Origin: Cymodocea nodosa
Taxonomy: Eukaryota; Streptophyta; Magnoliopsida; Alismatales; Cymodoceaceae
Direction of reading: 5' to 3'
NCBI GenBank assembly: GCA_036874045.1
Contig: JAZBRI010000003.1
Coordinates: forward strand, 4,290,501 to 4,354,500
Length of the DNA: 64,000 bases
Positions 22,901 to 63,300 of the stretch are shown piece by piece. The notes beneath the pieces were generated by a model. The model was not told the DNA's origin. It worked only from the letters and a program-made list of their open reading frames with translations, and ran no database searches. The translations under genes and the position numbers were made by a program. Each line of letters starts with the position of its first letter. Position 1 is the stretch's first letter.

Positions 22901-25900
22901 TTGAAGGAGAATGTGAGAGTATCATTTTTTTTTTTTTTTGATCCTCTAGAATTATCCATAGAGGTGATAACATATGAGTCTCAATGGACACTCAAATGGC
23001 CTAGTATCCAATGAGGCGAATGCTTGAAGGAGGTCTTGCTAGGCCTCAACATGGTAGATTTCTCGAAGTATCGCGTACTTTGTCTCGCAAAGATTTTCAA
23101 CTAGTTGGAAGTACCTAAAGTGACCCTATCCACCAACTTGATTGAGATTACTGACTGAGGCAAGACTCGCAATATTGGCACGTGAATTGAGTAAGTGGTG
23201 CACACACCTATAGCTTGTCAGTACTTGAGCAGAGCCAACACTATTGCTCATAGACATTACATGAGAACTTCCCAGATGGTCACCCATCCTGGTTCTGCTC
23301 TCGCCAAAACACAGTTAACTCTAGAGTTCTTACAGAAGTCGATGCTTGGTAGTAGGTGTAAATGCAATAGATAAATCATGGTTGAACTTTAATGTATCAT
23401 TTAGGTCATTAGATAAATGGGTAAATAGATATCCGATTACATTAAAGTTCAAGTACACATTCTCTATATAATGTACCCCCTTTTGTTGCTAATGATGGAT
23501 TTCATTTTCCGTAATTCTTCTTTTCCATGCAATAAATGCAAAATAAATAGTTTTAGAAAATATTATCATGAATTGCACAGATGTACATGCAAGATTTTTA
23601 AGTGGTAAAATAATTTTTTTATCAATTGCCAATATCACATTGAGGATACCATTGGAAATATCAAGGTTTTTGGAGTTTTATTACATGAAGAAATCTTAAT
23701 GTCATAAAAGGTTAGTAAAAGCATGATTACCATATACAACTTTTTAAGAAAAAGGAGAACTTTTAGGATTGTTGCAGTCAAGAAATTTTCATCTACATAT
23801 TACACTCACCCAAAAAGTCAAATTTGTTGAGAGATTAAATTTCAAAGACAGATGCTAAAGAAGATAACACAAAAGATGGAAAACCATTATTTATTATCAA
23901 TCCATAAATGATTTCCAGAAAAATATTCATGTAACCAGCCTAAGTACTAACTTATGATGATGAGAAATAGTTGATATAAAAGCTGAAAACTATTGAGAAT
24001 CACCAAGAAAGAATGAAAATCTTACAAGATAATCTGCATATTGAGATAGAGTATGAACTCCTTGAACGTAATCGGCAGCTGCATCTACACTTGTCTTATT
24101 TTTGCCAATATTTACTCCAAGAATACCAGGACCTGCTTTTCCTCCTTGCTTAACATTGCTGTTAGAGGTTTGAGAAGTAGAGGTTTCTTCCATCTTTCTT
24201 TTACCATGTTGGGCACCCAGTCGTTTTGCAACTACAACAATGCCTTCACTATTAAAGCCGCAGCGGTTGATGACAGCACTGTCAATAGAAACATCAAACA
24301 ACATCTAATTCATTCTTCATTTCAAGCTTAAAAGTGCAACAGCTAGATTAACAAAATGGCCATAATCCAGAAGCACTTACAGTTCAATAAACAAAGAAAC
24401 TTCTACTTACCCTTCAGAGCGCAATCTAAAGATGCGAGGCTTTGGGTTACCCTCTTGAGGAATAGGGGTCACTGAACCAACTTCTATAAATCCAAAACCT
24501 AAACCTAACAAACTTTCAACAGCTTCAGCATTTTTATCAAAACCAGCGGCAAGACCTATTGGATTACGAAACTTCCGACCCCATACTTCCAACCCAAGAA
24601 TTGGTGGATCTGGCCTCTTCTCCCTTGGGATAAGCCCACGAGATGAAGCTAATATTGCAAGATTATGAGCAGTCTCTGGATCCAGTAATGCAAATGCTGG
24701 ATTCAAAAGCTTGGAAGAATTAAACAGCCATCCACTGCATAATCATTAGAAAACATCACAAAAGTAGCCGACAGGGTAATGACAAACAATTGTTGCTTTT
24801 TTTAGTAATAAAAAATCGTGTATTCATTAAACAAGAGAAAAAGTAAAAGGTGAGAGGTGATGGGAAAATGGAGAAAAATAGAGGAAAGGAAAACAAGGAG
24901 GTGGTGGAATGAACAAAATAGGAAGAGGATGCATGCACATAACTATCCAACTTAGATAAAGATTCAGATTGATATTAAATATGAACTTGAACGTTATGTC
25001 TACATTTATATTTTGCATTGATGTAAAAAATGGAAAAATAGCTGTGCAAAATCTGTTTGAGCAATTTTTAACCCAAACTGTTTAGTTTTTAAAGAAATGG
25101 AGAAAATGGTTCGAAAAAATGCATTTTCCATGTAAATAGACATTTTCCCATTTTCTACGTTTTGGATGTTACTATTTAAGTTGTTGTTGTTGACATGATT
25201 TTAATGTTTGATATTTTACATTTTTTTCTTAAACTTTATTTGCATTTTTATATAGTTATTTACGTTTAAGGACTTATTAGTAACTAATAAATATACATAT
25301 TCAAAATATATATTTTGAATTGTGATATTTAATTGAATAAAAGTTTGTTTTACCTAAGTAATCTACAATAGTGATGATTGTATAGATGCAAGTATATTTA
25401 TATTTATCTTTTATTTATCTCATTTCAAAAAATTCATGTTTAAACCCCCATTTAAAAAAAATAATTTCCAATCCATATAAATGTTGATTTTCCATTTTTA
25501 TAACATTGATATTTTGAAGTCTAAAAAATTTGAACTACAATATTTTTTTAATTGATTTTTCACTTTCCTAACCATTATTATCTACACGATTAGGTTATTT
25601 AGGTGTTATTTTGTTGTTAAGTACATAAGTTATGCTTCATTTTTAATCCATTGACTTGTGAATAAGTGGCAATTACACATGCCAATGCCATCCTTTTTCG
25701 ATTATATTACATGTGAATGAATTATAATTTTTTTTATTCATTTAATTTAATAATTATTTCTTATACCTGATATTATATATTTATATCTATATTTTTATGT
25801 TTTAAAGTTTATGTTTCTCCAAAAAACTATTTAAGTCATCATTTTTTTATAAATAAATGGTTTTAGACTTTGTTGGCCATAAAGCATCAATGGAATGATG

Positions 25901-34316: not shown

Positions 34317-34700
34317 TTTTTTTTTAATTTTTTTTTTTATCTTTTAAAAATATCTATGAAATTGATAACATATAAGTTTTAATATACATTTAAAGGTATA
34401 CACTAAAAATATCTAAGGAGACGAAAATTTGTAAGAGGTCTTACTAAATACTAACATGGTAAATTTCTCTAAGTATCGTGTACTTTATTCTGTAGAGATT
34501 TTTAACTAGTTAAAGGTACCTTAAGTGACACTATCCACCAACTTGATTAAGATTATTAACTGAGTCAAGTCCGATAATAATATTTGACATGTGAATTGGA
34601 TAATTGATGTACACATCTACAATTTATTAATATTTGAACAAAATCAACACTACTATATAACATGAAATGACATCTATTAGTCTTACCTCTACATCATCTA
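34317..34700 (-). mobile_element. 5S-headed short element, copy B (decayed)
   Basis: The plus strand from a T-rich tract (34317-34338) onward matches the body of copy A in the same orientation: ACATGGTAAATTTCT for ACATGGTAGATTTCT, CTATCCACCAACTTGATT identical, and AATCAACACTACTAT for AGCCAACACTATTGC. Most differences replace G or C by A or T, as expected from deamination of methylated DNA. The 5S head is too decayed to prove beyond about 34660, so the right boundary is uncertain. Confidence 0.65.
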
Positions 34701-50788: not shown

Positions 50789-52490
50789 TTTATAGTAAAT
50801 TACTTGAGTACATTGTCTTTTCAAGAGGAGTTAAAATAACTCAAGCGAAATTTCAATGTGTGGAAGAGTGGCAAGTGCTTAAAAGCATCCATGCTTAAAG
50901 AAGATTTTTGGGACCCTCACAGTTACAACATGTGCTTTGTGACATCTTATGGGTCAATTATAGCACCATTAACAACCCTAAAGAAAAATCAATTCAAATG
51001 GATACCTTAAGCTACAAAAGCATTCAAAAAACTTAAGATAGCACTGGTTATCACTCCTGTCCTCACTCTATTGGATTTTGACAAGGAGTTTGTCACAGTG
51101 TGTGATGCCATGGAGGTGGGAATGAGAATTATACTAATGCAGAATCAGAAACCAAATGCATATGCAAATCAAACTTTCAAGCCAATACAAACAAGCACTA
51201 TCTACCTATGTTTGGAGATGGAGGTAGTACTTGCTGTGACAAAGATTCACAATAAGAACTGACCAGAAAAGACTAATGTACTTGTTAGAGCAGAAGATAT
51301 CAACACCACAATTTATGGTAGAAGTCACTAGTGAAATTGTTGGGGTTTAACTTTCACATCAAGTTCAAGAGAGAATCAGCAAATAACACTGCTGGTGCTC
51401 TCTCACAAATGGAGGAACAAGAGAAGTTGCTGGCGGTGTCATTTGTTCAGCCCATATGGATCAAATAATTGAAGATATCCTACCAACATGAGGACCCAAA
51501 GCAACAATGGAGCAATGGAAACAGTGGTGATTGGATGCCACCAAATACCAACCAAAGGATGAAATTTTCTATTACAAAGGGCATACTGGATATGTTTGGA
51601 CATACCAACAAATCAAAAAAATTCCTGGTTCTTGACAGGAATGGAGAGAAATGTTAAATATTTTGTTCGTAGGTGTGAAATTTGTCAACAAATGATGTTT
51701 GAGAACATGTTTCCAACAGGCTTACTGCAGCCTGTACCAGAGCTCATACGGGAGGATATCTCAATGAACTTCATTGGGGGATTGCCACTCCCTAGGAAAT
51801 TTTCAATAACTTATGTGGAGATATCAAAATAGGCTCATTTCATGGTCGTGAAACATTCATACACAGCTGAAAGCATCATTCAAGTTTTCATTGATAATAT
51901 TGTTAAGCTTCATACTATCCCAAATATATTATCTGACTATGACATCCTCTCTCTGAGAAAGTCCATTAAGGAACTGTTTACATTTGTTGGGTCAAACTTG
52001 AAGATGAACACTGTCTATCATCCTCATTCAAATGGCCAGACGGAAGTGGTTTATGACGGCAGAGATGTATTTACATTGCTTCTGTTCTGACCAACCCAAA
52101 GAGTGGGTGGATTGCCTTTCCTAGGTGGAGTATAGCTACAATACGAGCTTTCACACAGCCACTGGTACCAGTCCATTTCATGTTGTTTATGGAAGTAGTC
52201 CTCCATCCATCATCACATTATACGAAGTACACCTTGAGAGATAGCTATGGCTAATGCTCTGAGAGATGGGGACCAATTTTGAAGCATTTCAAAGAAAAGA
52301 TTGTCAAGCTCAATAAAGTATGAAGCACTACATTGCCCAAAGGAGTGAGCACCAATTTTAAGCGGGTGATTGGGCTTATTTACACCAGCATCCTTTTTTT
52401 TTTGGCAAAACCTCAGTCTATTTAAGGGCTGGTGGCCTAAGGAAGAGAGCTCCAAAACAGAGAAAGAGGATACAAAAGATAGGAAGGGGT

Positions 52491-53099
52491 TCAGCGACTA
52501 CTAATATTAGGAATTCTGAGCAAGTTTATTTGACAAAACAGGCAGGGGTTTGCCAGGAACTCTCTAAAATGGTAGAACATCTGTCGCTGGCTAGCTTTGA
52601 TGCCCTGTTGCACAAGAGAGTTGGCTCGTACATTGTCTTCCCTTAGAATGTATTGTAAGGAGTGAACTTGGCTAACAAGATGACCTATGCCCGAGCTGCT
52701 TTTGAATTGCTGGAGAAGGTTGTAGAGGTGAAGTGAGTATGTTTCAATTTCAAGCTCAGTCAAGTGGTAGCCCCGTTCAAGGTAAATGGTGAGTCCACTT
52801 TGCAATGCTTGGAATTCTGTCGTGAGGACATTGGCTTGACCATATGATTCAGAGAAGGCAACTACCTCACCTCTTTTGCAGAGGACTCCTCCACCTGCTG
52901 CAGCTTCAACCAAAGTTACTGCCCCATCTGTGTTTAGCTTGAGATGTGTTCGAGAAGGCTTTTTCCAAACTATCCAATTGATCCATGCTTTGACTGGGGT
53001 TAGCTGATTAAAGCCCACCACCTGTAGAGCCTGAAGGTCTTCAGGTTTACATTTGGTGTTCAGAAAAGATTTAGTAAAACCCACCAGTGCAGTTTCCAC
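52491..53099 (-). pseudogene. LINE RNase H domain, open frame of 202 codons
   Basis: RVT_3-type RNase H. Asp in LNTDGA and Glu in TTEFQALQSGL fit the active-site pattern, and EIETYSLHLYNLL occupies the position of the usual E-x-DS motif (Asp replaced). REDNVRANSLVQQG replaces the usual REgNxxADxLA motif. The catalytic set is therefore incomplete. Confidence 0.75.
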
Positions 53100-56000
53100 T
53101 CTATAGATGATGTCTTTAAAGGAGTCTCTCTTCTTTTCGTAGATGACATAACATCTTTCTTTCCAGCACTCCTAGAGAAGGCTAGCAACTAGGAATTTGC
53201 AAGCATTGACTTAAGAGGGATTAGCTTTAACAGAACAAGGTTCTTTGGGCGAAGCATATCCATTCCATTTGGCTGGAAATATTACAACTGAGATCCAAAA
53301 TCTGGATAGGATGGCCTAGTCTCCTTCAAAACATAAGTGGTGTTCAGAGTCCTCCAGGTGGAAAAAAACAGAGCATTTGCATTTGAAAGCCAAGTGAAAT
53401 CCTTTTCTTTGGAGATTGATTTTGGTAAACAAAATGGAATGGAAAAGCCTCCAGAGAAAAAAGGAGATTTTAGTAGGGAGGAATTTGCTCCAAAGTCCCT
53501 TATTCCATCAATGAGGCCTTCCCTTCTTCCAGATGGAATCCCATGTAGATTAAGTGGAGTGGTCGCCTGAGGGTAAGCCGATCCAAGAAATTCATCCTCC
53601 AACTCATTGACGTGGTTGAGGTTGGACCAGATCTCTTGAGTAAGGGGGTGCAGAAGATGTAATTTGTCAAGCACCCTAGGATCTGCAGCAACCTCAATAA
53701 CTGTTATCTAGTCATATCCAACACAAGGGTTGATGATATCTGCAATGATTCCAAAGGGTAGCTAGTGATCATTCCATAAACCAATGTTCCCTTTACCATC
53801 TATCCAAAAGGAGTGAGCAATATTGTGCGAGGCATTTTGAAGGGCATTCCATGTCACAGGTTGATGCCTAACTTGCTTATTGAAGGTAACACCATATTTA
53901 GAAGAGATGACTTCAACCCAAAAGGTCCCTTTTTGATTAGACGTTAGGCTATCTTCATTCTCGAAGGTTAACATGAATTCTTTGAAGTCACAAATGCCTA
54001 ATCCCCCTTCCTCCCTTGGCTTGGTAATGTTACTTCATTTGATCCAATGAGCCTTGTTAGCGACCCACAGAAATTCAGTGAAAAGGAAATGAAAGCAATC
54101 AAGCACCCCTACTGGAATGTTGAAGGAGCACATCAAATGGATCAGCACACTGGCAAGGACATGCTATAAGAGGGTGATCATAGCACCCAATGATAAAATT
54201 TGCTTTTCCACCTCACCAACTTGGCTTGTATTTTGTGTGTCATGTCTTCAAAGTAGATCCCTTTGGCCCTTCCTTTGAAAAGAGGACAACTAAGGTAGTG
54301 GAAAGGGAAAACCCCCCCTTGAAAACCGATGAGGTCTTTTATCATGTTTTCTCTTTAACTTGAGAATTTCTTGGGAGCCACAAAGAAGCTCGTGTTGGGA
54401 TTAACTTTTTTCCCAGAGAAGTGTTGGTACTCCTAAAGGAGTTGCAAGACTTCTTTGATTCTACTCTCCCATTGATGAAGAGAATGGCATCATCTACAAA
54501 AAGAAGATGAGAGACAAGATGGTTTCTAATATCAGTGTTGTAAGGAGTGACTCAACTAGATGTGATTAGACAATGGAGATTTCTACTCAATATCTCTTCC
54601 ATGATGATGAAGAGATAAGGTAAGAGAGGGTCTCCTTGTCGAAGCCCTTGAGATGCTTCAAAGAAGTCAAAGGATCTTCCATCTATGACTACAAAGAAGA
54701 AATTTCCTTCCACACATTGTTTGAGGAGATCAATAGAAGGAAGCAAGAATCCAAACCTCCCAAGAACAACCCAAATTGCAGTCCACTCTAAGCTGTCAAA
54801 TGTCTTTTCCATATCCAAGTTGAGTATGATGTTGCCCTTTGTATCCATTATTGATATTCTGATCAAGCTCTTGAGCAAGGGCAATAATGTCTACGATGCT
54901 CTAGCCTTCCACAAAAGCACCTTGTAAAGATGGTATCATTTGAGGGAGGAGATTGGTAAGCCTCTTGACTAAAATCTTAACAATGACCTTATATCTAATG
55001 TTACAAAGGCTAATGGGTAGGAAGTCCTTAAATTCCCTCGAGCTTTCTTGTTTGGGAATTAGTGACATGAAGGTAGCTTTCCAAGAGCTGTCTAGCCATC
55101 CACCACAAAAGAATCCTTATACGGCCTGAGTCAAGTCTTTAACCACAATATCCTAGCAATTTCTAAAGAAATCTGCCATGAAACCATCTAGTCTAGGAGC
55201 ATGATCCTTTTCAATAGAGAAGATCACAGCATGGACTTCTTCCAAGTCAGGGACAACACAACATGCACTATTTTCTACTTGGCCAGTCACTTCCAAGAGA
55301 ATTTGAGTGAGGGGGATCATATAATGGGATCCTTCCGATGAGAGTAGATGAGCAAAAAAGACCTTTCCTGTTGATCAGACTTCCTCCATAGAGATGAAGT
55401 TGTTATATGCAATTAGAGCCCCATACCACTTTGCATTTCTCCTTCTATTTATGATTTTGTGAAAATAAGCAGTGTTTTTGTCACCTCCAGTCATCCATTG
55501 AATGCAAACTTTTTGGGCTAGGAACACAAATTTCTACTGATTGCATTTTTCCAGCACTGCTTTAGTTAATTCCAATCATGAGTAGATATCCTTATTTCAA
55601 TCTGATTGCAATGTAGTTCCAGTTGGCCAATCTCTCGTAGCAATTTCTCCCTATCTTGATCAACATGGCCAAAGACCTGCATGTTCCATCTTTTGAGAGT
55701 AAGCTTCAAACTATACAACTTCTAGCTCAATCTGGAAATAGGACAAGGGTCAGAAATGCTATTCTAAGTACTGGAAACTATGTCCTGGAAATCTTCATGG
55801 AAGGTCCACATCCACTGGAATCAAAAAGGAGCTCCTCCAGCCCTGGTAGAGTTAGTAAACTTAAGGATCATAGGGGAGTGGTCTGAATAAACCCAGGGAT
55901 GATAATGCACTAGAACCTTTCGGTGACTGCTATCCCAATTGCTCATCAAAACCGTGTCTAACTTTTGATAATGTCTTTCACAACCTTGGTGATTGTTGCA

Positions 56001-56162
56001 CAAGGAGAGGGAGTCACCAACATAGTATGTTTCCTCTAACCCAATCTTGTGGATGAGCTCATTAAATTGACATGCTCCAGCAATATTCAAGGGGCCACTA
56101 GAGAGGATTTCCTTTTTGTTCCTGACAGTGTTAAAATCTCCACCAAGAATCCATGGAAAGTT

Positions 56163-56242
56163 GGAAAATTGTTATTGGTAGGGAAAAGTTCCTCCTATAA
56201 GGGGTGACGATTAGGGAAATTGTTATTGGTATGGCAAAGTTC
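56163..56242. repeat. 51-bp tandem duplication in the LINE, later split by copia
   Basis: Unit 1 is 56163-56213 (GGAAAATTGTTATTGGTAGG to ...GACGATTA). Unit 2 begins at 56214 (GGGAAATTGTTATTGGTATG) and continues beyond the copia element at 61122 (CTCCTATAAGGGGCAACAAT). The copia insertion lies inside unit 2, so the duplication is older. Confidence 0.8.
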
Positions 56243-56513
56243 TGATGAATGTGCAAGAAGGAGAAAAATGACAATTGATTTTTACGTGATTCCCAAGATT
56301 GGTATGTCCATAAATGCAGGGTTAGCCTACCTTGTTCTTTCCTTTTTGTTTGTTAGATATTACAAACACCCTCATAACCCCATTTTATATGAGAGACCTA
56401 ATTAGGATTTTCACAATAAACCACTAACACAAAAAAAGAAGTCATACAAGGATCTTAGTAAGATCCGTTTATCCGATTACATGAGTCTCCACAAACACAC
56501 ACAAGACTTAACA
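56243..56513 (-). repeat. Copia 3' LTR
   Basis: 271 bp, TG...CA type: on the minus strand it starts TGTTAAGTC at 56513 and ends ...CA at 56243. It shares GTTCTTTCCTTTTTGTTTGT, ATTACAAACACCCTC and ACACACACAAGACT with the other LTR. Confidence 0.9.
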
Positions 56514-58250
56514 ATCTCCCACATGGAGACTCATGACTTCAGATAATGGCAAACTGGATGACCCTTTTCTACATCAAATTTCTCCCTTTTCAATCAACAA
56601 GGAGATTAACTAAAGCCATGCATAACCTTAATTTTTGAAGATTCATCACCTTTGTGAACATATCAACAGCATTCTCCGTTCTAGCTATCTTCAAAAGGTT
56701 CAAGCTTCCTTCAACAATTTGTTCCCTCACAAAATGAAAATGCATCCTGATGTGTTTTAATCTTGAATGGAACTTGAGGTTTCTTGACAAGTAAATAGTA
56801 CTTTGATTATCACAAAATAGAATACTCTGATTCTGTTTATAACCCAACCCTTGAAGAAGATTTTCAAGCCAGATTTTTTCTTTAACTACTTTTGAGACAA
56901 CAACATATTCTACCTCTATTGTAAAAAGAGTGACAAGACTTTGAAGCTTTGATCTCCAACTAATTGCAGTCCCACCAATGCAAAATACATAACCAACAGT
57001 GCTACGACTACTGTCCATGTCTCCTCCTAAATCTGAATCACAATAACCTTGTAGGATTACAAGATTTTTCTTGAAGCAAAGACTAACCTTAGGAGTTGTT
57101 CTAAGATACCTTAGAATCTATTTAATTGCCTCTCAATGTTCCAAACCAGGATCTAACATAAATCTGCTAACCACTCCCACTACATGGGAGATATCTAGGT
57201 GAGTGCAAATCATAGTGTACATGAGACTGCTCACTACTGAAGCATATGGAACCTTGGCCATTTCAACCCTTTCTTCTTGATTTTTAGGTCTTGCTTTCTT
57301 AGAGAGCTTAAAATGACTACCCAAAGGTAAGTCGGTAGACCTGCGGTTAGGGATATTGAACCTATTCAACACCTTTTCAAGGTATTTATGCTGATCTAAC
57401 TTCAGAATTCCATCAAATCTATTCCTAACAATTCTCATACCCAAAATTTACCTTGCCTTCCCAAGATTTTTCATATCAAAGGCCTTGGATAGCTCTCCCT
57501 TGAGTTCCTTGATCTTGTTGATGTTGGCACTAGCAATTAACAAGTCATCAACATATACAACCAAAATTATATAACAGTCCTTGAAGTGTCTAATATAACA
57601 ACAATAGTTTGACTCACACTTCTTGAACCCAATTCCAACAATAAAGGAATCAAATTTCATATACCAATGACATGGAGCTTGTTTCAAGCTATAAAGGTTT
57701 TCTTCAGCCAACAAATGAGCTTTTCTCCACTCTTAGAAATTTCATAGCCTTCTAGTTGAAACATATACAACTTTTCATCCAACTCTCCATGGAGGAAGGT
57801 TGTTTTGACATCCATTTTGTTCAAGATATAAATTTTCAACTGCAACTATACTCAAGATGGCTCTTATAGTTATAATCTTGACAACCGGTGAAAAAACTTC
57901 AATATAGTCTAGATTATGAATTTATTAAAATCCCTTAACAACTAGTCAAACTTTATAAAACTTTCGAACTCTTGAGTCCTCTTTTAATCTGAAGACCCAC
58001 CTATTTTGTAAGGCCCTTTTACCATTGGGTAAGACAACTAGTTTCCAAGTTCTATTCTTCTCCAAATACCTCATTTCTTCATTCATTGCAAACTTTCACT
58101 AAGCTGCATCACCCTGCTTGCAAGCTTTCTGAGTAAGACTCTGGTTCCCCACCATCTATGAGGAGAAGATAGTTGAATGAAAGAGATGGATCCAATCTTT
58201 CTAAAGGTTTGGAGACTCTTAAGGATCTTCTAAGTGGTGGAATTACAGGT

Positions 58251-58811
58251 GCATTTACACTTACTATCAATCACTCTTTTGTAAGAACTCTGGAGTTAAA
58301 TGTATTTAGGTAAAAGTAGTACCAGGATGAATAACCACCTGAGAAGTTCTCGTATAGTGTTCATGGACAATAGTGTTGGCTCTACTTAGACATAAACAAG
58401 CAGTAGGTGTGTGCATCTACCTAACCCACATGTCGACATTGCAGGTCTTGCCACTGTTAGTATTCTCAATCAAGTTGGTAAATAGAGTCACTTAAGGTAC
58501 CCCCGACTAGTTGGGAATGTTTGGGAGACAAATTGTATGGTACATGAGATCAAATTCTAAGAGAGCGCTATTCTAAGTACCTATGAAAGCCTACTCTTGC
58601 AAGCTTTCACCTTTATAGATAAACCTGATGTATACTAGGCTTTTTAAGTGACCATGAAGTGTCACCCATTATCAACTACATGGATACTTCTGATGTTCAT
58701 CAGACTGTTTAAGTATCTATGGAGTGTCACCTGTTATCACTTATATGAATACTCTTAGTGTTCACCAAGTTATTTGAGTGTTCATGAAGTATCACATTTA
58801 AAAAAAAAAAA
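58251..58811 (+). mobile_element. 5S rRNA-headed, poly(A)-tailed short element, copy C (full length, target duplication)
   Basis: Begins GCATTTACACTTACTATCAA and aligns through AGAACTCTGGAGTTAAATG, AGTAGTACCAGGATG and GAGAAGTTCTCGTAT with the whole of plant 5S rRNA. The body (58370-58560) matches copies A and B. The tail carries two to three imperfect repeats of about 65 bp (each with AGTGTCACC and GTTATCAC) and a 12-base A run (58800-58811). Direct repeats flank it exactly: GTGGTGGAATTACAGGT (58234-58250) and GTGGTGGAACTACGGGT (58812-58828), 15 of 17 identical. A-tail plus long target duplication means LINE-type mobilisation, that is, a SINE. Confidence 0.85.
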
Positions 58812-60892
58812 GTGGTGGAACTACGGGTTCTTGAATTTCTTCATCTTTCTTTGAGTCAATGCCATCAGTATCAGATTCATTGTTCTCATCAAAGCCAATT
58901 TTAATTTCAAACATTAAGGTTTTCATGTCGAACACCACTAAATCCTATTTTTCTTCCAACTAATTTTCATCTTTGTATTTACAAAGCTTGTTTTCACAAA
59001 AGACAACATCTTTAACTCTAAAGACTCTTTTGGTTTCTTCATTCCAAAATTTGAAACCAAAATAATCTCTTCCATAACCAATAAAATAGCACTTCTATGC
59101 TTTGAGATCTAATTTATCCCAGTGAGCAGCATCAAGATGAGTGTAAGCAACACATCCAAAGACCTTTAAATAAGAGTAATCTACCTTCTTTTTAGTCCAC
59201 AATTCCTCAAGTACCTTGAAACCAATTCAAACTGAAGGACCCTTATTGATAAGATAGGCTACAGTGTTCATAGCCTTAGCCCAGAAGGTTTTTAAAAATC
59301 CAACATGTATTCTCATGCTTCTAGCTCTCTCATTTAAGGTGTGATTCATTCTTTCAATCATTTCATTTTGTTGTGAGTTGCTAGAGACTATTCTAAGCCT
59401 TCTGATTCCATTTTCTTCACAATAACATTTGAATTCTTTATTGTAATATTCACCTTCATTGTCAGACTTGATACACTTCACCTTTAACCCCACTAGATTC
59501 TCAACTTCAGCCTTCTATTTTCTAAAAATTGAAAAGACTTCAACTTTTCTTTATTGAAATACACCTAGACATTTCTAGTATTATCATTTATAAAAGTGAC
59601 ATAATATAAAGAGTCAATAATGGATCAAATAGAGGTAGGTCCCCATACATCTAAGTTAATGAGTTCAAGTTTGTTAGGCTTCAGATTGTGACCTCCTCTT
59701 GAAAAGCTTACCTTCCTTTGCTTTCCAAAGATGCAGTCTTCGCATGTTTCTAGTTCCTTAGTTTGCAATTTAAAAATTTTATCTTCAGTTACAAGCATCT
59801 TCAAACCCTTCTCATTAATGTGTCCCATTCTCCTATGCCATAGAGTGGGATCACTATTACTACCCACTGTTGCAATAGAATCATTATCTTCATTTGAAGT
59901 TAAGTACAGAATGCCTTTCTTGATGCCTTTAGCAATTGCTCGAACTCCTTTAGAAATCTTCCATCTCCCACTGCCAAAGACAATGTAGTAACCATTGTTG
60001 TCCAACTAGCTCATGAAAATGAGATATTTGGCTAAACCTAGAACATATCTAACATTCTTCAACACCCAAGGACCCTATTTTAGTGTCAATATGAACATCA
60101 CCTTCACCTAAGACATCTAAAGCTAGATTATTGGCAAGATAGACTTTCTTGACATCTATAGCTCTATAGTTGCAAAGTAGTTCCTTCTTGAAGGTTGAAT
60201 GAAAAGAGACTCTTGAATCAAGTACCCAAGAATTTATAATGCTGACAACACAATAAACTAAGGCATCATTTGACCCATTACAAACTGAGTGTGCATCACC
60301 TTCAGATTTGCCTTGTTTCTTTTTGGGAGCTCTGCATTCAGACTTGAGTGACCTCTCTTATCACAGTTCCAACAAACCACATTCTTTCTCCTCTTACTAT
60401 GAGCCTTTGATTTTGATCTTTGATTTTAATCTTCCTCTGTTGCCATTTCTATTTTGATGTCTTCCCCTGCCTTCCACGTTAAGAGCTAAAGAGGAAGACT
60501 CCCCAGTTGCTCTTCTTCTAATGTCTTCATTTAAGATAAGATCTCTAATGTCATTCATCTTGAGCTTTTCTTGCCCAAGTGAGCCACTAATGCTGGTTAC
60601 CATGGTTGACCAACTTTCAAGAATGGAAGATAACAAAATCAGACCTTGAACTTCATCATCAAGGTGATAGAAACTGAGTTCAACTATATTAACAAGGTGT
60701 TTACCTCATCAACATGATTTGAAACACAAGCACCTTCATGCATTTTTAAATTGAAGAGCTTTCTCATTAGAAAAACCTTATTGGAAGTAGAGGATTTTTC
60801 TTATATGTTGGATAATGTCTTCATGAGATCAATTGTTGTTTTAACCTTAGCAATATTGAAGGCTACATTTCTTGCAAAAGTCAAACGGACAA

Positions 60893-61116
60893 TCCCAAGA
60901 GTTTGTACATCCACGAATGCACAGTCAGCCTGCCTTGTTCTTTCCTTTTTGTTTGTTAGATATTACAAACACCCTCACAACCCCATTTTATATAAGAGAC
61001 CTAATTAGGGTTTTCACAATAAACCCCCAACACAACAAAAGAAGCCATACATAGATCTTAGCAAAATCTGTTTATCCAATTACATGAGTTTCCACAAACA
61101 CACACAAGACTCAACA
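60893..61116 (-). repeat. Copia 5' LTR (inner end truncated)
   Basis: Matches 56290-56513 at roughly nine bases in ten by eye. The outer end TGTTGAGTC is at 61116. Similarity stops near 60893, where gag-like sequence begins directly, so about 45 bp of LTR and the primer site are missing. Confidence 0.85.
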
Positions 61117-63300
61117 AGTTCCTCCTATAAGGGGCAACAATTACTAATTTGGCAACAAGCATAAACAATAGTGAATAGGAATTTGAAGACATCAAGAAGG
61201 GTGATCCAACAAGATATGGTCTGATCTAACATAGTAATGGGGAAAAGCCAAATTTTATTGGAAACACTGTTAGGAAGCTATTTGGGCAAGCAAATCTAAT
61301 CAACAATCATTTGGCCTCTTTAAAGGTTCCAACACAACAACTAACTGCATGTTGTTCATCTGAATTTCCTCTTTGAGGTGAGTTTGAGAGGCCCTATTCC
61401 TTAGGCCTCTGCAGTTCCAAATGATAAGATTCATGATGAAAGAAAGGTCTCCTTAAGGAGGTTAACAATTGGCTAAGGAGATTTCCTCCCCTCCATGTTC
61501 TCTCTTAGAGGAACTTTGTTTTTGTCAACTGTAGGATTTATTTCGTGAATAGGTTTTGTGGATACTTAGGTTGAGCTTCATCTTCCTTTGAGCGATGGCC
61601 CAGTCCAATGCTAACAAGTTCTAAATTGCTAACAGTCTCTAACGGTAGTTCTGTGATCATCGGCTCATCATGTGGCTCCTCCTCTCTAGAGTCATTTTCC
61701 ATGTCAACCCAGAATATTCAAGGGAGTGGGCCATTTTTGCTGAGCTGGTTAGATTGGTTGTCTCGAGGGGCTTCAGGATTTATCTGATTCTCCATTGTGT
61801 GCTGGTGAGAAGTCTCATTTTCCTTTAGTCCTCTATCATCTAAAATGTGGTGTTGGTGTTGTTTCCGGTCTTTTTGGGTTTCCTCTTCTTCCTATGGACT
61901 TCCATCCACTCTGTGGTAGCAGCCTTGCTTAAGGGGTCACTACTATTTTAGGTGTTCTCCTAGTCATTCACAAGATTGGATGTATCTCCTAAAGTGCCTA
62001 TTGCATTCTGTTCTGGAATAAACCTACCAATTGGCAACCTAGTCGAAGGATTATGGACTTACAGCAAAACTCAACTTGATGACCAATTTTGAAGCATGAA
62101 GAACAAAACCTAGGTTCCCAAGGGTCATATTCAATTGGTTGTGTGATCATCTCATGTCTATTTTAAATTTGGACTAATCAAGGGAGTGGCTTGGAGAGGT
62201 CCACTTCTATGCAAACTATTATTAGCCCTGGTCACGTGAAACATTGCATATCCTCATGGAGGCACAAGAAGCAGCTTGACATCCCTATGATAGACCTGAT
62301 AGCACTAGGTGTCAGCAAATGAGCTCTAAAGGAGGGGTTTGTGCAGCAAAATTGAACAGAAATGAAAATAATTTTCATCCCATTTCAGTAGGTTAACATT
62401 TATGTACTGACGAAAAATATTTATGATGTAAGGTTATTGATAAATGATATATAAAGATCTATTTATAATATTATATAACTTGTTAATTAATTAATATAAT
62501 TAATTAATTAATATAATTAATTAATTAATATAATTAATTAATTACATTTTAACTAATTACTTTAATTCATTAAACTTAATCAATAAATTAATTATAAATA
62601 ATTATATTACATTATTATTGTAAACAAATATAAATTTTAATTCTATCATAAGCACAAACATCATCTAATTTTCAAATTCTATAAAATTCAAATTTCGTCA
62701 AAATTCAAATTTTACTAGATTGAATTTCGAGTGTACAAACAAATCTTAAATTTCAAAAAGTAGACCTATGCCAATGCCTAAGGTGATTCGAGGTCAAAGA
62801 AGAAGAAAGGTGACCAATGTGAGATAAGCATCTGCTTTCCTTTAATCACCTAAAAACCTGTCACGTATGCTTTGATAAAATCCTCCTTATTCCTAAATCG
62901 TATGAGGATATACCTAGAGTCAAGGGCAACAAGTAAGAAGCCCTCCTTGAAGGGAAGGGCAAGCTTCATTTCAGCAAGGATATCCATCATGAAGGGCCGT
63001 TGGAAGCTAAACCAACTAACCAAAGTCTAGGAGAAAGCCCCAACCAGCTGTGTCACCTCCTCCAAGGAGAAGGAGGTGATTTGTTCTCCATTTTCAGATA
63101 CCAGAGCACACACAGGTATGTCAAGAAAGTTGAAGACACCAATGTTTCCTTCAAAGTTGTTGCAAAGGAAATGAAATGTTCTTTGGGGGCTCTCAGGTTA
63201 GGGGTTTTCATAGTCAAGAAGAGGAAGCGAATGAATGAACCAAGTGGGCTGCCCAGAAGGGAGGAGCCCCACCCAATTTGACACTTACATAACATGATTA
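61117..63300 (-). mobile_element. LINE, 5' half: ORF1 and start of endonuclease
   Basis: The minus-strand ORF2 start is ATG at 61434-61432, followed by NLIIWNCRGLRNRAS, the plant LINE endonuclease opening. ORF1 lies to its right: IRFRNKEDFIKAY (about 62930-62880) and RAHLLTPSAIRSIIG (about 62320) represent the DUF4283-like domain, CIEVDLSKPLP lies near 62200, and an intact zinc knuckle CSSCFKIGHQVEFC near 62110-62060. Stops are present. The 5' end is not defined and could be anywhere from 63250 to 63700. Confidence 0.8.
62350..62790. repeat. AT-rich insert with 17-bp tandem repeat in LINE ORF1
   Basis: A non-coding, very AT-rich block separates the two halves of the ORF1 DUF4283-like domain. 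It contains nearly four copies of a 17-bp unit (TTAATTAATTAATATAA, about 62483-62546). The ends were not resolved and no inverted repeats were identified. Confidence 0.5.

Follow-up and report, generated by a model that had tools for sequence, protein, structure and literature searches.

A SINE family with a 5S rRNA-derived head in Cymodocea nodosa and its enrichment near chromosome ends

Three copies of a repeated element in the window

The 64,000-nucleotide stretch of Cymodocea nodosa DNA that we analyzed (the window; contig JAZBRI010000003.1) contains three copies, designated A, B, and C, of a repeated element (Table 1), along with gene fragments that carry Snf7 and amino-acid transporter domains. 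Copy C entered a decayed Copia-type element that has a gag_pre-integrs domain and is bounded by an LTR-like pair. A decayed L1-type LINE is also present, and no resemblance was seen by eye between the 3′ end of this remnant and that of the SINE described below. The three copies contain no open reading frame of at least 110 aa, and next to copy C and copy B we observed no second copy placed like an LTR partner.

Table 1. Positions of the element copies, their parts, and other elements in the window
Feature	Position	Strand	Remarks
Copy C, whole element	58247–58811	+	
5′ target-site duplication, copy C	58234–58246	+	GTGGTGGAATTAC; two preceding As may belong; family start and duplication test
5S rRNA-derived head, copy C	58247–58365	+	Alignment to 5S; family heads
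Presumed box A, intermediate element, and box C region, copy C head	∼58293–58350		Approximate placement of boxes
Unique body, copy C	58366–58799	+	Dispersed repeat
∼65-bp sub-repeats, copy C	58607–58795		3′ part of body; blastn
A-tail, copy C	58800–58811	+	12 A
3′ target-site duplication, copy C	58812–58824	+	GTGGTGGAACTAC; 1 mismatch
Copy B, full-length, second subfamily	22925–23369	−	5S head at high-coordinate end
A-tail, copy B	22925–22939		15 A
Copy A, decayed, without 5S head	34319–34655	−	Begins at element nt ∼124
Copia-type element, decayed	56291–61117	−	Entered by copy C
LTR-like pair of Copia-type element	56291–56514 and 60893–61117		∼225 bp, 88.9% identical
L1-type LINE, decayed	52394–56300	−	Reverse transcriptase and RNase H-like domains
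Short A run of LINE remnant	52394–52403		

Copy C is composed of a head, a body, and an A-tail between the two halves of a 13-bp target-site duplication (TSD) with a single mismatch (GTGGTGGAATTAC and GTGGTGGAACTAC). The initial annotation had placed a 17-bp duplication directly against an element that starts at 58251; the duplication and its abutment to the element hold, but its length and that start do not. The family start, AGGTGC, puts the beginning of copy C at 58247, so its duplication comprises the two stretches given in Table 1. Counting two As that are continuous with the tail would extend it to 15 bp, and a length of 17 bp includes four bases that belong to the element. The poly(A) tail was borne out, and the body proved to be a dispersed repeat with ∼65-bp sub-repeats, within a head-body-tail unit common to the family. 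Tandem Repeats Finder, run over 58000–59000 with a score of 30, reported no array; the sub-repeats appear in blastn instead. The first three bases of copy B are unlike the family start, and no clear TSD was found for this copy. Copy A begins almost exactly at the body, as would a 5′-truncated copy or a head-less relative.

The heads were compared with an approximate plant 5S reference sequence, using 500 shuffles per copy. For copy C, the best local alignment covered 5S nt 40–109 with 53 of 70 positions identical (score 55; best shuffle 25), and for copy B it covered nt 40–111 with 58 of 72 identical (score 74; best shuffle 24), these identity counts being worked out from the alignment scores. 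Copy A gave no match to plant 5S (score 16; shuffle maximum 27). Against the Rfam 5S model, which has a cut-off of 38 bits, copy C fell short at 20.8 bits (E = 0.11 in a 651-base scan, which also gave a chance-level snoRNA match of 12.7 bits), and a 14-kb scan that included copy C returned nothing at E ≤ 0.1. Matches to the 5S model were obtained at E ≤ 0.1 for 16 of 20 copies of the B subfamily, four of them above the cut-off and reaching up to 42.9 bits, and the loci of the D and E variants yielded nine matches at E ≤ 0.01 in seven loci, six above the cut-off, with a best score of 49.0 bits. The less decayed copies match over model positions 1–120. The 5S-like character first attributed to the copy C head is thus upheld by alignment scores above those of the shuffles and by the full-length Rfam matches of younger copies.

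A dispersed family with the anatomy of a SINE

The genome searched comprised 374.6 Mb in 28 contigs. The copy C element as a query returned 653 first-look candidates, of which 40 were scored (72–100% identical); copy B returned 950, with 40 scored including itself (81–100% identical); and a C-subfamily consensus, built from 35 C-type copies that are 71–89% identical to it, returned 1052, with 40 scored. A 29-bp head motif, allowing up to three mismatches, had 398 matches in the genome and none in the backward control. These candidate and motif counts overlap and give no total copy number. Copy C is thus a member of a SINE family whose copies number in the hundreds in this genome and have in common a 5S head beginning at 5S +1 and A-tails, as the SINE reading in the initial annotation had anticipated. 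A full copy has one to three of the ∼65-bp sub-repeats in the 3′ part of its body, as read from lengths and matches, and head, body, and tail are joined in the same way across the aligned copies, with the TSDs outside the whole unit. Exact scans for family motifs gave no match in viral contigs or in a separate set of genome contigs, as expected for a plant repeat. Contig C17 carries an rbcL-like frame of 402 codons whose PDB matches are Rubisco large chains, the best entries being presumably from plants.

The host's own 5S genes are arrayed on contig C1, where all 47 scored matches (of 10838 candidates) are located. The element start AGGTGC aligns with 5S +1. When aligned with one of these genes (L045), the heads of the B, C, D, and E types were identical at 87 of 115, 84 of 114, 90 of 116, and 91 of 116 bases, respectively, the D head being derived from seven copies and the E head from two. 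The similarity is strongest at nt 40–108 (56–60 of 68–69 identical) and weaker in the 5′ third, nt 1–39 (22–25 of 37). The B and C consensuses differ at 4 of 115 positions in the head and at 59 of 312 in the body (Fisher P = 2 × 10−5); a head that changes less than the body would be predicted if the promoter has to be preserved in source copies. We also observed that the E heads, found at contig ends (L122:208–325 and L123:137–257), have CCAAAGTT and CTCTTGGGAAGTCC in common with the host's own 5S genes, as if heads track changes in the host 5S. The L045 gene itself differs from the approximate plant 5S reference at 16 of 119 sites, by eye chiefly through C-to-T and G-to-A changes, and folding of the D head predicts a 5′ hairpin that is not predicted for the host 5S.

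TSDs were scored in the flanks of the copies, with a score of at least 10 taken as clear and with flank pairs from different copies as the control. Clear TSDs were found in 19 of 37 copies with the 5′ end reached in a first set, which includes window copy B with its 3′ end mis-set, versus 1 of 1332 control pairs, and in 14 of 21 B copies versus 2 of 420 control pairs. With copy B counted once, 33 of the 57 pooled copies have TSDs of 10–23 bp (controls, 3 of 1752) and 24, window copy B among them, have no strong TSD. The variable TSDs and A-tails looked for in genome copies are therefore present, and the duplications are not of 5 bp. The base that precedes the 33 TSDs is C or T in 29, A in three, and G in one (pyrimidine excess, P = 0.005), and 21 of the 33 begin with AA, compared with a background of 17% for flank positions that follow a non-A base (P = 2 × 10−9); the leading As are not separable from the tail, although the excess over background is still large. 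On the sense strand, the rule is thus pyrimidine|AA, which corresponds to TTT/R on the nicked strand. The target rule of the L1 endonuclease is similar, and this resemblance suggests that the SINE is probably mobilized by L1 machinery. TTTT is absent from the B, C, and D consensuses (the last built from five units), as a pol III transcript needs, with a chance by shuffling of 0.18 for B and 0.08 for C, which is weak alone.

On the basis of its 5S head, copy number, TSDs, tails, and target motif, we consider it very likely that copy C is one copy of a SINE3-type, non-autonomous, non-LTR plant retrotransposon, probably transcribed by pol III and mobilized by L1. The 5′ head would be a captured 5S rRNA gene that still includes the internal type 1 pol III promoter region, and the element is, judging from its sequence, probably transcribed by pol III. 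The RNA would begin at 5S +1, pass through the body without encountering a T4 terminator, and end in the A-tail; an L1-clade LINE would take this RNA by its A-tail and nick the target at TTT/R. Target-primed reverse transcription would then generate the 10–23 bp duplications, sometimes with the 5′ part missing.

Two other origins for the family were weighed against the SINE3-type reading. In one, the family would be a Cassandra-type TRIM, or its solo LTRs, with the 5S domain inside the LTR. Its A-tails and 10–23 bp TSDs stand against the 5-bp duplication of Cassandra, and its 5S sequence is located at the very 5′ end rather than in the middle of an LTR. Cassandra is nonetheless the known plant element with a 5S sequence (excerpts of PMC10853983), and pairs of copies 416–470 bp apart at contig ends looked like LTR pairs at first; however, the spacers of the contig-end pairs that were read consist of the A-tail and CCCTAAA repeats. 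Paired LTRs had been named as an outcome that would argue against a SINE, yet a second copy was present at the position of an LTR partner, within flanks of 1.5 kb or 0.5 kb per side, in only 2 of 42 loci (L014 and L025), both of which are near contig ends in tandem clusters. A standard 24-bp C-box had four single-mismatch matches in the genome: contig C1 carries two, within or close to the 5S array, and the other two belong to SINE units at contig ends; this pattern would miss more diverged Cassandra copies. The anatomy of the element, with its 5′ 5S sequence, A-tail, and long TSDs, contradicts a Cassandra element or a solo LTR, and we regard this origin as highly improbable. Even less credible is the chance joining of dispersed 5S pseudogenes to flanking repeats. 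The heads are 5S-like and the genome has a 5S array, but the identical head-body-tail join recurs in aligned copies with the TSDs outside the unit; these shared boundaries rule out a chance fusion, and the heads are common to the family rather than peculiar to copy C. A tRNA-headed plant SINE was also rejected, as Rfam scans of the copies recovered 5S without any of the tRNA families.

Position and orientation near contig ends

The 5S-headed SINE is strongly enriched near chromosome ends, an association that the initial annotation did not contain. Among the best 100 of the 398 head-motif matches, a sample in which the one-mismatch matches run as far as contig C17, 21 are situated no more than 60 kb from a contig end, spread over 12 ends, compared with 0.67 expected for the 96 matches on contigs of known length. 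The telomeric matches are clustered and not independent, so that a P-value for this enrichment overstates the independent evidence. All 21 are of the D variant, and 20 have their 5′ end toward the tip, the exception being on contig C3. Within 100 kb of a contig end, 22 of the 24 matches in the same sample are oriented tipward, and the interior matches of the sample lean to one strand (43 plus versus 29 minus). A junction pattern composed of telomere repeat CCCTAAACCC followed by the element start AGGTGCATTTACACC, with up to three mismatches, had 22 genome matches and none in the control. Near contig ends were 21 of these, at 13 different ends (20 within 50 kb and one at 109 kb), all with the 5′ end outward; the remaining match is internal and has three mismatches.

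Of ten contig ends that were fetched, five have TTTAGGG arrays (C1 right, C6 right, C15 right, C17 left, and C18 right) and five read N (C7, C10, C13, C19, and C21 left); among the 13 junction-bearing ends, five are shown to be telomeric and three read N. On contig C1, the terminal array starts at ∼28.860 Mb, and SINE units lie ∼13–21 kb inside it. Some of the youngest members of the family are embedded in telomere repeats. Loci L122–L125 contain 5S-headed units that are surrounded by CCCTAAA repeats and have their 5′ end on the side of the contig end, and in the loci read the head-body-A-tail units are spaced by 8 to 57 bases, mostly of CCCTAAA-type repeat. Contigs with SINE units inside such repeats at their ends are C1, C2, C6, C7, C14–C19, and C21. 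TSDs are unreadable inside telomere repeats. The element is not bound to telomeres, because D copies with TSDs are present at ordinary sites: L126 is flanked by TTCAATAACAG and TTCATTAACAG, and L127, which by eye lies inside an older antisense copy, has TTCAAAGTTCT twice.

Each TTTAGGG unit contains TTT/A, and a nick there results in the orientation seen. Telomeric TTT/AGGG repeats would thereby offer an L1-type nick site every 7 bp, and an inserted element would then have its sense strand in the CCCTAAA strand, its A-tail pointing to the centromere, and its 5′ end to the tip; priming from the chromosome 3′ end would give the same orientation. We tentatively entertain, as a real possibility short of an even chance, that this is a plant SINE that homes to telomeres, in which a 5S-promoted RNA would be used by an L1-clade machinery whose TTT/A nick preference fits the TTTAGGG repeat, and new copies would repeatedly arrive in telomeric DNA with their 5′ end tipward and build subtelomeres, much as insect telomere retrotransposons do but without coding for protein.

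A competing account, compatible with the SINE reading itself, accepts the 5S-headed SINE as real and attributes its telomere link to subtelomeric duplication or exchange of a few insertions; we hold it to be a possibility, though less likely than not. Subtelomeres recombine, several subfamilies occur in the contig-end clusters, and the two L125 units have A-tails of the same length (21 A) and 96.8% identity, as local duplication would give. In contrast, the two neighboring units of L124 share only 91.1% identity, less than the 93.9% between one of these units and L126, an internal copy on another contig; this pattern favors separate insertions. The spacers between telomeric units also vary by cluster, from 8 to 57 bases, and C-type and D-type copies are both present in telomeric clusters. 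These features lead us to infer repeated insertion into telomeres over exchange between chromosome ends, and both processes may act. Insertion into telomere repeats in a fixed orientation is characteristic of TRAS1 and SART1, telomere-repeat LINEs of insects, and of Zepp from Chlorella. The telomeric units of C. nodosa likewise have a fixed orientation in telomere repeats; however, TRAS1, SART1, and Zepp encode proteins, whereas the SINE is non-coding and also inserts elsewhere.

Relation to known elements and significance

SINE3 elements have been described from vertebrates and some insects (excerpts of PMC7245038), and one report describes a 5S-headed SINE from a fungus (excerpts of PMC5063351). 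The C. nodosa family resembles SINE3 elements such as HaSE3 and SINE3-1_TC in its 5S-derived head, body, and tail, its non-autonomous nature, and the conservation of the promoter region, and it differs from animal SINE3 in its plant host, poly(A) tail, L1-like target motif, and enrichment at contig ends; the animal families have been assigned to CR1, I, or RTE machinery (excerpts of PMC7245038). As in plant tRNA-derived SINEs with poly(A) tails, there is an A-tail and a probable L1 partner (excerpts of PMC3747384), but the head is derived from 5S. Plant L1 machinery is thought able to mobilize poly(A) SINEs, for which the tail alone may suffice (same excerpts). Cassandra likewise is a plant retrotransposon with a 5S-derived internal promoter; it is an LTR element with the 5S sequence in mid-LTR (excerpts of PMC10853983), whereas the family described here has an A-tail and long duplications, and no LTRs were seen. 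AnnoSINE sorts plant SINEs by a tRNA, 7SL, or 5S head, and the available excerpts of its description name no plant 5S family (PMC8825457). In the open-licence literature searched, we found no plant 5S SINE and no telomeric plant SINE; the accessible parts of PMC8312256, PMC11490119, PMC7852121, and PMC6410037 held nothing on plant 5S SINEs.

The family is a plant 5S-headed SINE, a type reported mainly from animals. It has been speculated that Cassandra arose from a SINE3 that inserted into an LTR (excerpts of PMC10886601); if plants truly lacked 5S SINEs, this proposed ancestor had no plant example, which the present family, with its hundreds of copies, provides. Plant SINE3s of this type may represent the sort of ancestor that has been suggested for Cassandra. 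Oriented as they are within telomere repeats, the units suggest that a non-coding element accumulates at chromosome ends, and in a plant with ordinary TTTAGGG telomeres the targeting of telomeres by plant L1 machinery becomes directly testable.
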